From contig NZ_BAAAWH010000001.1 of assembly GCF_039534975.1 (NCBI RefSeq), positions 1,426,001 to 1,490,000 of the forward strand: a stretch of 64,000 bases of DNA. Reading direction: 5' to 3'. The stretch comes from Microbacterium terregens. Lineage in GTDB: Bacteria; Actinomycetota; Actinomycetes; Actinomycetales; Microbacteriaceae. The position numbers and the translations under genes were made by a program. The stretch's first letter is position 1. Every line of letters starts with the position of its first letter. Of this stretch, positions 26,704 through 30,059 are shown one piece after another. The notes beneath the pieces were generated by a model that was given only the letters and a program-made list of their open reading frames with translations, was not told where the DNA came from and made no database searches.

Positions 26704-28659
26704 TCAGGCGTCGACCGGCGAGAACGCCGCGGTGACGAGGCGCTCGAGCGTGGTCATCCCGTCGCGGGAGAGGATCGACTCGAGGTGGCCCTGCACGGAG
26801 GCGAATCCGGGTCCGCGCATCGCATAGACGTCGCCGGTGGTCGGATCCGCCGCGACCTCCGCGACGCCGACAGCGCTCACTCCGGCGGGCACGCGGGCGG
26901 TGAACGTGTTGTAGAACCCGATGGATGCCGGCATCCCGAACAGATCGACGGTCTTCTGCAGTCCCTGGTGCGGCGCGTCGAGGGGTGCCAGCTCGATGCC
27001 GAGCGAGTCGGCCAGGATCTGGTGGCTCAGGCACACCGCCAGCAGCGGACGACCGGAGGCGTGACGTCGGGCGACGACCTCGCGCATCCGTCGCATCCGC
27101 GCGGTCCCGGGGTCGCGCGGATCTCCCGGTCCGGGGCCCGACACGATGAGTTCGGCATCGTCGATCTGGGCATCGGTCACCTCGTTCCACGGGACGATCC
27201 GGACATCCAGGCCGAGATGACGCAGCTGATGCGAGAGCATCGTGGTGAATCGGTCCTCGGCGTCGACCACGACTGCCGTCCGGCCCTGGAACGGACCAGC
27301 GACGATCGAATCCTGCGGGTTCAGCCAGAAGGCCGCGAGCCGGGCATTGCGCGAGGCCAGCAGCGCCGCGATGTCGGGATCGTCGGCCAGCGTGCGTGGC
27401 TGCGGTGCCGGCGCGTCTCCGTCGATCGGGCCGCTCGGCAAGGCGGGCTCGACCGGGTGATCGCGGGGGATCGCGCCGATCGCGCCGAGCACGCCGGCCG
27501 CCTTGCCGTGCGTTTCGCTCACCTCGCCGAACGGGTCGGAGTGGCGCACCAGCGTGGCGCCGACCGGCACGCGCAGGCGACCGTCGACGAGGTACGCGGT
27601 GCGGATGAGGATCGGCGCGTCAAGGTCATGCGTGGACTCGCCGGCGAGGACCGCGTCGGTGCGGGGAGTGAACAGGGCGGCGACCCCCGAGTAGTACCCG
27701 CGCGGTGTCAGCTCGTGCCGCGAGATGACCGTGCACGCGTTCTGCATCGGCGACCCGGTGACGGTGGGCGCGAACATGGTCTCGCGCAGGATGGCGCGCG
27801 GGTCGAGGCGGCTGCGGCCGCGCAGCACGTACTCGGTGTGGGTGAGCCGCGACATCTCCTTCAGGTGCGGACCGGTGATCCGGCCGCCGTCCGAGCAGAC
27901 GGCGCTCATCATCTTGAGCTCCTCATCGACGACCATGAAGAGCTCCTCGGTCTCCTTCGTCGACTGGAGGAATTCGGTCAGCGTCTCGGTGGTCGCGCCG
28001 CCGGCCGGGTGGCGGAACGTTCCCGAGATGGGATTCATCGTGACGATGCCGTCCCGCGCGCTCACGTGCGCCTCCGGGCTCGCGCCGACGGCGACGTGCC
28101 CGGGGGTGACGATCGCGAACGTCCAATAGGCGCCCCGCTCGTGCTCCAGCAGTGCACGGAACCACGTGAGCGCCGCGGTCGCGGCGTCCGCGGCGACGTT
28201 CGCGGTGAAGTCGCGGCGGATGACGAAGTTGGCGCCCTCGCCGTGGCCGATCTCATCCGCGATGACCCGCCGGACGATGGCGGCGTAGTCGTCGTCGGCG
28301 ATGTCGAAGCCGGCGTCGGCGAGGGGGATGGCCGCCGAGGGCAGCTGTTCGAGCGCCGCCGCGCGATCGAACAGGGCTCGGTCGCGAACGATCAGGCAGC
28401 GCAGCGGCGCACCGTCGTCGTGGCACTCGAATCCCCGTTCCCGCACCTGCCGGAACGGCACCAGCGCGAGCACCTCCTGCGGGCGACCGCGTTCGTCCTC
28501 GAGGGGAATGTCCGCCAGCAGGTCCACATCGACGATGTCTCCGGTGAGGAGTTCGATGGTCGCGGAATCGCGGGCGAGAAGGGCGAACGGGATGCCGCGT
28601 GCGGCGATGTCGAGCAGCACGGCGAGATCGTTCGGGGGAGTCGGGGCAGACCCGGTCAT
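26704..28659 (-). CDS. Fused TrpE-TrpG anthranilate synthase / PhzE-like enzyme
   Basis: This 651-residue protein joins a chorismate-binding synthase domain (about 1-395, with [10 protein letters not shown] and [11 protein letters not shown]) to a glutamine amidotransferase (about 435-650) whose triad is C543 in AVCLSHQ and H625 and E627 in QGHLES. The domain order matches both TrpEG fusions and PhzE, which makes 2-amino-2-deoxyisochorismate, so the product could be anthranilate or ADIC. No other trp or phz gene is nearby. It is preceded by a tryptophan leader and attenuator. The start is supported by the 5' leader ending here. Confidence 0.85.
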
Positions 28660-28687
28660 GGTCGGTCTTTCGTCGTGGGGGCGGTCG

Positions 28688-28787
28688 CCCTACGAAGAAG
28701 ACCGCCCGGAGGCGGTCTGTGGTCGCGCGAACACACCGCCTAAGAGGCGGGCCACCGGGTGGGGTTCGCAAGCATGGGGTGAACCTA
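28688..28787 (-). promoter_or_regulatory. Tryptophan attenuator upstream of the TrpE-TrpG gene
   Basis: On the minus strand, a TAGGTT -10 box (plus 28782-28787) is followed six bases later by a leader ORF. Then come four mutually exclusive segments: 1 CCGCCT (28745-28750), 2 AGGCGGT (28735-28741), 3 ACCGCCT (28710-28716) and 4 GGGCGGT (28701-28707). Segments 1:2 and 2:3 pair perfectly. Segments 3:4 form an eight-bp terminator stem (28699-28718) followed by TCTTCTTCG. The leader tryptophan codon abuts segment 1, so ribosome stalling would favour the 2:3 antiterminator. Confidence 0.82.
28740..28775 (-). CDS. Leader peptide of the attenuator, one Trp codon
   Basis: The ORF reads [11 protein letters not shown] and stops. 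The ATG sits six bases after a TAGGTT box, so the leader is itself leaderless. The single TGG codon is followed directly by segment 1 of the attenuator. It is too short to be called by gene finders and is recognised only through its position. Confidence 0.75.
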
Positions 28788-28907
28788 CCACACGGGGCAG
28801 AGGCGGTTGCGAGCGAGCGTGCCTCCGCTCCGGCATCCGCGCGGCGCCGCGCGGGGCGGATGGCGCATCCAGGCTTCGTGCGGGCGTGGCGGCGTAGGCT
28901 GGGGAAT

Positions 28908-30059
28908 GTGCCAGCCGTGAATCTCGGGATGCCCAAGGTCCCCGAAACCCTCGCCCCCCGCCGCAAGACCAGGCAGATCAAAGTCGGCAAGGTGCTGGTC
29001 GGAGGCAACGCGCCGGTGAGCGTGCAGTCGATGACGACGACGCCCACCACCAACATCAACGCCACGCTGCAGCAGATCGCCGAGTTGACGGCATCCGGAT
29101 GTGAGATCGTGCGCGTCGCGGTGCCCTCGCAGGACGACGCCGATGTGCTGCACATCATCGCGAAGAAGAGCCAGATCCCGGTCATCGCCGACATCCACTT
29201 CCAGCCGAAGTACGTCTACCAGGCCATCGACGCCGGCTGCGCAGCCGTCCGCGTCAACCCGGGCAACATCCGCAAGTTCGACGACCAGGTCGGAGAGATC
29301 GCCCGGCGCGCGAAGGAAGCCGGCGTCTCGCTGCGCATCGGAGTGAACGCCGGATCGCTGGACCCGCGCCTACTGGAGAAGTACGGCAAAGCCACGCCCG
29401 AGGCGCTGATGGAGAGCGCGGTGTGGGAGGCGTCCCTCTTCGAGGAGCACGACTTCCACGACTTCAAGATCTCCGTCAAGCACAACGACCCCGTGATCAT
29501 GGTTCAGGCCTACCGGCTCCTCGCCGAGCGGGGCGACTGGCCCCTGCACCTGGGCGTCACCGAGGCGGGGCCCGCGTTCCAAGGCACGATCAAGAGCGCG
29601 ACCGCGTTCGGCATCCTTCTCGGCGAGGGAATCGGAGACACGATCCGTGTCTCGCTCTCAGCTCCCCCCGCCGAGGAGGTCAAGGTCGGCCACCAGATCC
29701 TTCAGTCGCTGAACCTCCGCGAGCGCAAGCTCGAGATCGTCTCGTGCCCCTCGTGCGGGCGTGCGCAGGTTGATGTCTACACGCTTGCCGACAACGTGAC
29801 CGAGGGCCTCAAGGACATGACCGTCCCGCTGCGGGTCGCCGTCATGGGCTGTGTCGTCAACGGTCCCGGCGAGGCGCGTGAGGCCGACCTCGGAGTGGCC
29901 TCCGGCAACGGCAAGGGCCAGATCTTCGTCAAGGGTCACGTCATCAAGACCGTTCCGGAGTCCGAGATCGTCGCGACGCTCATCGAAGAAGCGAATCGGC
30001 TGGCGGCCGAGATGGGCCCCGCCGCCCCGGTCGGGACGGCCCAGGTCGTCACCAGCTGA
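28908..30059 (+). CDS. ispG: 4-hydroxy-3-methylbut-2-en-1-yl diphosphate synthase
   Basis: This 383-residue iron-sulfur enzyme makes HMBPP in the non-mevalonate pathway. The [4Fe-4S] cysteines are in [11 protein letters not shown] and [11 protein letters not shown] near the C-terminus. The N-terminal barrel carries VQSMTTTPT and RVNPGNIR. The GTG at 28908 is preferred because TAGGCT ends seven bases upstream; GTG at 28917 or ATG at 28929 are alternatives. It belongs with dxr upstream in the same pathway. Confidence 0.97.

Follow-up and report, generated by a model that had tools for sequence, protein, structure and literature searches.

A predicted ribosome-mediated tryptophan attenuator ahead of a fused trpE-trpG gene in Microbacterium terregens

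Introduction

The trpL leader of Escherichia coli (Rfam RF00513) works through alternative pairing of RNA segments, 1 with 2, 2 with 3 and 3 with 4, and the same logic can be read in the Microbacterium terregens leader described here. Tryptophan attenuators of Corynebacterium glutamicum and Streptomyces venezuelae have been studied by experiment, and classical attenuators with double or triple UGG codons have been predicted in Corynebacterium and Streptomyces (PMC1262725). The closest known case is trpL1-trpE of Streptomyces: in S. lividans, the monocistronic trpE is preceded by the Trp leader trpL1 (MFAHSTRNWWWTAHPAAH), which is described as leaderless, and trpS by trpL2 (MMTRTCTQLWRAA), likewise described as leaderless and with one Trp codon (PMC8079986).

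The window analysed here, a stretch of 64,000 nucleotides of the M. terregens genome, resembles the trpL1-trpE case in having a Trp leader, predicted to be leaderless, before a monocistronic gene for a putative anthranilate synthase. Several relatives of this gene (L187-L191, L195, and L196; 48-52% identical to the window protein in the best tblastn piece) follow leaders of the Streptomyces type, MFA.S...WWWTA.PAA., which have 18 codons, three Trp codons, and a stop codon 24 nt past the last Trp codon, whereas the window leader has 11 codons, one Trp codon, and a stop codon 12 nt past it. The run of three Trp codons that marks a Streptomyces-type trpL is found neither in the window leader, with one, nor in the other 55 leaders of the same-genus set L001-L056, with two. 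Since one of these leaders, MFAHSTQNWWWTAHPAAH of L191, precedes a relative of the window gene, we take trpL1 and the window leader to be one system, and the gene controlled by trpL1 in S. lividans is presumably of the fused type. The Corynebacterium trp attenuator is alike in its Trp leader and competing hairpins but precedes an operon, whereas that of the window stands before one fused gene, with trpCBA and trpD located elsewhere. The S. lividans trpL2 shares with the window leader its one Trp codon and its leaderlessness (predicted for the window); it differs in standing before a tRNA ligase gene and in that no uridine-enriched run was found behind its hairpins (PMC8079986). The kind of switch is thus already known; what is new is its extent, the apparent role of the gene product as sole enzyme in Microbacterium, and the leader as a discriminator between Trp enzymes and PhzE. 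Among the papers listed in our literature searches, as covered by titles and the openings of abstracts and including few subscription journals, we found no description of a Microbacterium leader of this type.

Results and Discussion

Direct reading of the minus strand bore out the TAGGTT box and the leader six bases downstream that an earlier note had proposed. The -10-like box (28782..28787, within TGTGGTAGGTT) is followed by the six bases CACCCC and by the ATG, at 28775, of an 11-codon leader open reading frame (ATGCTTGCGAACCCCACCCGGTGGCCCGCCTCTTAG; 28740..28775), which ends in the stop codon TAG at 28742-28740. The one retained Trp codon, TGG (28752..28754), lies 12 nt ahead of this stop, the distance at which the last Trp codon of most relatives is also found, and comparison with relatives shows that CGG (Arg) at 28755..28757 replaces the first TGG of their TGG-TGG pair. 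Four segments on the same strand can pair in alternative ways, as had been claimed: segment 1, CCGCCT (28745..28750); segment 2, AGGCGGT (28735..28741), which overlaps the leader stop codon; segment 3, ACCGCCT (28710..28716); and segment 4, GGGCGGT (28701..28707). All four were read directly and recovered in a helix scan. The TGG codon had been said to abut segment 1 directly; one C (28751) intervenes before CCGCCT, so that the statement holds only if segment 1 is taken as CCCGCCT.

Helices 1:2, 2:3, and 3:4 of the window measure 6, 7, and 8 bp, a triple reached by 0/3000 dinucleotide shuffles (which began at the stop codon and left the leader codons, hence segment 1, unshuffled), while a looser triple of 5, 5, and 6 bp was reached by 20/3000 shuffles of the window sequence. 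The 86-nt leader has a minimum free energy of -39.4 kcal/mol, compared with -29.2 +/- 3.4 kcal/mol for shuffles (z = -3.0; 0/200 as low), and the folding suggested by the earlier note gave a 1:2 hairpin nested in a longer stem plus a separate 8-bp terminator hairpin. This 3:4 hairpin (28693..28718 with its T-rich TCTTCG), which folding and covariation support, resembles an intrinsic terminator: its full stem is AGACCGCC-TCCG-GGCGGTCT (28718-28699), with a 4-nt loop, and is followed by TCTTCG, a T tract that is short and interrupted by C. The looser triple (at least 5, 5, and 6 bp) is present in 126 of the 153 distinct sequences from homologues, compared with 118/3060 shuffles; the 27 that miss it include 11 Streptomyces-type leaders, a type inferred from the leader sequence.

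The short T tract, together with the eight of 153 distinct sequences in which the helix scan (at least 4 T among 10 nt around the stem end) found no terminator, might be taken to mean that the hairpins act in translation control or mRNA stability and cause no termination of transcription. We regard this as very unlikely, since the window hairpin ends 40 nt ahead of the trpEG start codon, many relatives have longer T runs, and a stem of at least 7 bp with a T-rich run-off occurs in 143/153 distinct sequences compared with 324/3060 shuffles. The upstream region of L077, a member of the same family, combines a normal WW leader and segments 1 and 2 with a terminator that looks degenerate.

Existing families do not capture the element. 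Rfam gave no match over the whole window at curated cut-offs; on 28500-29000, the family of the E. coli leader, RF00513 Trp_leader, scored 16.2 bits (E 1.5), below its cut-off of 41. Other sub-cut-off candidates in the same stretch at E up to 10, namely Hrs13 (20.7 against a cut-off of 52), mir-326, and sobemo_FSE, were taken as chance. The leader peptide, written twice, matched no NCBIfam family.

Among relatives, the leader is widespread. Of the 179 upstream regions taken from homologues, the window included, 167 yielded a Trp-codon leader of 9-24 codons, the range accepted by our leader finder; these regions hold 153 distinct sequences, some of the 179 being one strain from two sources. By source, leaders were found in 56/56 same-genus regions (L001-L056), 2/4 from order-level relatives (L057-L060), 18/19 from the family sample (L066-L084), 77/80 from named records (L101-L180), and 14/20 from the phylum sample (L184-L203). 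Of the regions without a call, L125 and L142 are cut by contig ends, and L058 and L169 carry WW or WWW leaders of 28 and 25 codons, longer than the finder's limit; the finder shows no leader upstream of L057 and L081 or of the paralogues L186, L192, L198, L201, L202, and L203. One further same-genus genome (G046) has the WW leader MFANTSWWPTR, so that the leader, which the earlier note had suggested seeking upstream of orthologues, is present in all 57 readable same-genus upstream regions; in G023, a contig end cuts the upstream region, and no leader lies in the remaining stretch. An RNA model of the leader matched 40 of the 41 same-genus genomes searched and gave one strong match in the M. 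terregens genome (E 4.8e-20; next 0.046). No further leader copy was found there among seven of the 17 weaker model matches (L205-L211, both strands), of which L209 is the window leader itself on the opposite strand and the other six have no Trp open reading frame with a TANNNT box. The trpCBA stretch (L181) has no WW open reading frame, and the trpD stretch (L182) has one. Model matches in relatives at E 6.5e-5 to 0.01 are weak; one of them (G007:C1:459982-460093, E 6.5e-5) falls on both strands of one spot and is perhaps a plain two-way terminator.

The promoter box is conserved together with the leader. A gap of 6-8 nt separates a TANNNT box from the start codon in 151 of the 153 distinct leaders (6 nt in 85, 7 nt in 65, and 8 nt in 1), a count slightly inflated by the finder's preference for in-frame starts with such a box; at random positions in the same regions, TANNNT at 4-8 nt was seen in 64/3060. 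From this conserved spacing, the mRNA is predicted to start at or next to the leader ATG, which would make the leader itself leaderless. The last Trp codon begins 12 nt ahead of the stop codon in 130/153 distinct leaders, and from this fixed distance the position of a stalled ribosome is likewise expected to be fixed.

Two or three consecutive Trp codons (WW or WWW) are present in 152 of the 153 distinct leaders, and the window alone has a single one; among the same-genus leaders (L001-L056), 55 have two adjacent Trp codons. The one-Trp leader noted earlier is thus real for the window but does not represent a separate design: with CGG in place of the first TGG, this genome departs by one codon from a pattern in which two Trp codons are the norm. 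The loss of one Trp codon is expected to weaken the response or to shift it to stronger starvation without abolishing it, and a natural one-Trp variant of a two-Trp leader offers a convenient way to ask how many control codons such a switch requires. As only a single base separates CGG from the pattern of relatives, and as a near-identical 5.5-kb copy near a contig end, described below, indicates that the assembly may have flaws, the CGG might instead be a sequencing or strain-level artefact in a species with an ordinary WW leader. There is no direct sign of error, however, in a genome that is 99.55% complete and 2.54% contaminated in 7 contigs, and we consider an artefact doubtful, if the alternative that deserves most room. 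That the window is the only single-Trp leader among the 153 could also mean that the attenuator is decaying in this genome, the lost Trp codon leaving an insensitive leader and a near-constant level of trpEG. Such decay is unlikely in our view: the box, the stop codon, the fixed distances, and all three helices are intact, the Trp codon that was kept has the conserved spacing to the stop, and the model score of 86.8 bits lies inside the range of the other same-genus matches (36.2-100.9 bits). Moreover, a one-Trp leader before trpS has been reported in S. lividans, where the function of that leader is putative (PMC8079986).

The comparisons make it very probable that the departure sits in a working ribosome-mediated transcription attenuator that ties the expression of a putative anthranilate synthase to charged tRNA-Trp. 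The leader, the box spacing, the competing helices, their conservation, and the covariation of the terminator are backed by the sequence itself and by its relatives; predicted are the start of transcription, termination as such, ribosome stalling, and the direction of the response to tryptophan. RNA polymerase would begin at the leader ATG or right beside it, and a ribosome would therefore load on a leaderless mRNA. When tryptophan is plentiful, the ribosome would reach the stop codon and cover segment 2, and the 3:4 terminator would form. When tryptophan is scarce, the ribosome would stall with the Trp codon (28752-28754) in its A site, covering segment 1 and leaving segment 2 free to pair with segment 3 ahead of the synthesis of segment 4, with read-through into trpEG as the outcome. 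If no ribosome loads, 1:2 would form, perhaps lengthened by a stem from the leader codons, and the terminator would form by default.

Modelled ribosome geometry fits this arrangement, which had been put forward from the window sequence and whose leader and promoter spacing are conserved in relatives, with covariation of the terminator. If the ribosome is assumed to cover 13 nt, counted from the first base of the codon in its A site, the RNA left free by a ribosome stalled at the Trp codon folds before segment 4 exists as 2:3, at -15.8 kcal/mol, whereas with the ribosome at the stop codon only -2.0 kcal/mol is available at that stage, and the terminator then forms. After segment 4 has been made, no state lies lower than the terminator in either case (-22.8 kcal/mol when stalled). 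As it wins at equilibrium even then, antitermination would need kinetic capture of 2:3, and this dependence on 2:3 forming first is how classical attenuation works.

Covariation was assessed on a reduced set, in which the 153 distinct leaders gave 130 distinct leader-to-terminator stretches, of which 87 shared less than 90% identity and did not exceed 125 nt. Two alignments, A1 with 46 sequences and A2 with 24, mostly from other genera, have two sequences in common and cover 68 of the 87; they omit nine Streptomyces-type or very distant leaders (L172, L187, L188, L193, L194, L195, L197, L199, and L200) and ten odd-length or distant ones (L004, L007, L054, L060, L077, L079, L121, L130, L131, and L150). 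For the 3:4 terminator, both sides had changed in 4/8 pairs in A1 (98.4% of cells paired) and in 3/8 pairs in A2 (97.9%), and the covariation score was matched by 0/500 shuffles in each. Part of this signal is also reached by a control slid by +3 columns, which scored 0.089 in A1 (0.096 in the true register) and 0.170 in A2 (0.215), though with fewer cells paired (70.8% and 74.5%); a repeated GGCGG motif would be expected to give such a result. In A1, helix 2:3 hardly varies (87.9% of cells paired, none of its pairs changed on both sides), and in A2 it gives a weak signal (three such pairs, 36/500 shuffles as high, 80.0% paired). For helix 1:2, A1 has no pair changed on both sides, with 77.2% of cells paired in the register of the window and an equal share at the +3 slide, and A2 has two (27/500 shuffles), with up to four in slides. 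Covariation thus backs the terminator, and helices 2:3 and 1:2 rest on conservation.

Two registers of helix 1:2 occur within the genus and track the last leader codons: leaders ending in ...LTA or ...PTV pair CACCGC with GCGGTG, and those ending in ...PAS or ...PAF pair CCGCCT with AGGCGG. In L173 (Kutzneria), segments 1, 2, and 3 read CCGTCT, AGACGG, and CCGTCT, a joint change that preserves the alternatives.

The minimum free energy structure also pairs leader bases that lie outside the 1:2 hairpin, GCGAAC (28764..28769, minus strand), with GTTCGC (28727..28732, minus strand) downstream of segment 2. Comparison in A1 gave 82.2% of cells paired and 12 cells changed on both sides, with 3/500 shuffles as high and 11 such cells at the +3 slide; the stem is no more than suggestive, and may add to the attenuator a fifth segment that lies within the leader codons.

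The gene behind the leader (26704..28659, minus strand) encodes a protein of 651 amino acids in which domain and structure searches place Chorismate_bind at residues 123-386 and GATase at 463-641; its closest solved structure is PhzE 3r74, so that the TrpE-TrpG/PhzE-like label given to it before was apt. Divergent from it and outside the system lies a GcpE/IspG frame (28599..30059, plus strand, as the longest open reading frame; the GcpE match starts at residue 124). A 652-residue open frame at 26785-28743 of the plus strand covers almost the whole of trpEG in antisense, extends into the leader, and was taken as an effect of high G+C content. None of the NCBIfam anthranilate synthase models came near its cut-off (135.7 against 645 bits for the best), and the role of the gene could therefore be missed or filed as phenazine specific.

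By homology, the fused gene is the sole anthranilate synthase candidate that we found in this genome: of three Chorismate_bind genes, one lies above the PabB cut-off, one lies above the cut-off of an isochorismate synthase subfamily, and the third is the window gene. A free amidotransferase of the PabA/TrpG type is also present. The genes trpA, trpB, and trpC are clustered, trpD is elsewhere, and the fused gene lies apart from both. No PRAI/TrpF match was found in this genome, in agreement with the PriA arrangement described for Streptomyces (PMC5036795). The 5.5-kb stretch with trpD is present twice in the genome, inverted and with 99.96% identity (L182:1-5501 and L183:320-5822; G000:C1 at about 1.739-1.745 Mb and 3.4958-3.5013 Mb, the second near a contig end), and could reflect either an error of assembly or a duplication of recent date.

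The function of the fused protein has to be weighed against that of PhzE. The best solved relative is PhzE 3r74 (E 5.7e-146), compared with E 4e-14 for the best chain named anthranilate synthase, and the active sites of PhzE and anthranilate synthase are described as very alike, the product released being unreadable from sequence (PMC5958127). These points would suit a PhzE-type ADIC synthase of secondary metabolism, whose leader merely couples that pathway to tryptophan. Against this, the gene is the only anthranilate synthase candidate found alongside a set of trpA, B, C, and D; its neighbors encode GcpE, a sigma factor, and a YCII protein, and no PhzD, PhzF, or DAHP synthase was met among them. 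A fused S. venezuelae enzyme is reportedly named anthranilate synthase in the title of a paper, which we also count against an ADIC synthase.

A protein tree separates the two kinds of gene. It comprised 44 of 49 rows, with the short-frame loci L039, L055, L057, L058, and L080 omitted, and all 36 leader-bearing rows, the window gene among them, grouped with L169 and L081, both labelled leaderless (L169 only because the finder missed its leader), apart from six leaderless rows. The leader label required three changes on the tree, with 0/500 shuffles as low, and the separating branch had a support of 87/87, unstarred, under a midpoint root. In all five two-copy genomes (G349, G412, G434, G588, and G605), the leader precedes one copy and is absent from the other. 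Four of the six leaderless paralogues lie beside phenazine-type genes: isochorismatase adjoins L186, L192, and L198, where DAHP synthase is also found, and PhzC-PhzF adjoin L203; for L201 and L202, one frame was scanned each, and no phenazine-type neighbor was recognized. Among the leader-bearing copies, neighbors were scanned for the window. Tree, genome content, and neighbors together place the gene, as judged by homology, in the Trp-pathway branch and outside the phenazine branch, and an ADIC synthase is the least probable of the alternatives considered here. We therefore read the leader as a mark of the tryptophan branch of the PhzE-like family and expect the enzyme to release anthranilate. 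Leader presence would offer a simple rule for sorting PhzE-like genes, and the predicted attenuator would be independent evidence for the production of anthranilate for tryptophan.

That evidence agrees with the pattern in the genus. The protein was matched in 96 of the 98 genomes searched, and in 58 of the 59 same-genus genomes, its own included, the match to the fused gene reaches E 1e-100 or better (the exception is G044). None of the 59 has a canonical TrpE (NF010086, E 1e-100 or better), a few of these genomes being incomplete (G039 at 44%). The best 80 of at least 580 relatives are mostly from Microbacterium; lower in the ranking come Agromyces, Jiangella, Kutzneria, Embleya, and others. 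At E 1e-100 or better, the fused gene was found in 20/150 genomes of the family sample and in 20/396 of the phylum. In the family, where TrpE was counted at E 1e-140 or better, canonical TrpE is missing from 8/20 genomes with the fused gene (G000, G034, G124, G142, G145, G147, G212, and G216) and from 9/130 without it, although one of these nine, G220, carries part of a TrpE where a contig ends. Of 39 relatives at the level of the order, five have the fused gene, and canonical TrpE, measured alike, is absent in 4/5 of these compared with 6/34 others, which include G070 with its TrpE split over two contigs. As the family and order genomes are not independent, we claim no significance for these counts. 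The fused gene and canonical TrpE coexist in many genomes, and the fused one is alone in some.

Taken more broadly, our results lead us to favor, with some reserve, a hypothesis in which, in Microbacterium and several further genera of actinobacteria, the task of anthranilate synthase has passed from canonical TrpE to a fused enzyme of the PhzE-like kind, with the attenuator marking Trp enzymes as opposed to ADIC-making PhzE paralogues of the same fold, and perhaps with a fifth segment in the leader codons setting a terminated default when translation is absent. In one member of the same family with a genome of 1.4 Mb (G124), in which no canonical TrpE was found, the fused gene (L081) has no leader and sits on a long branch of the tree; regulation may have been lost in this reduced genome.
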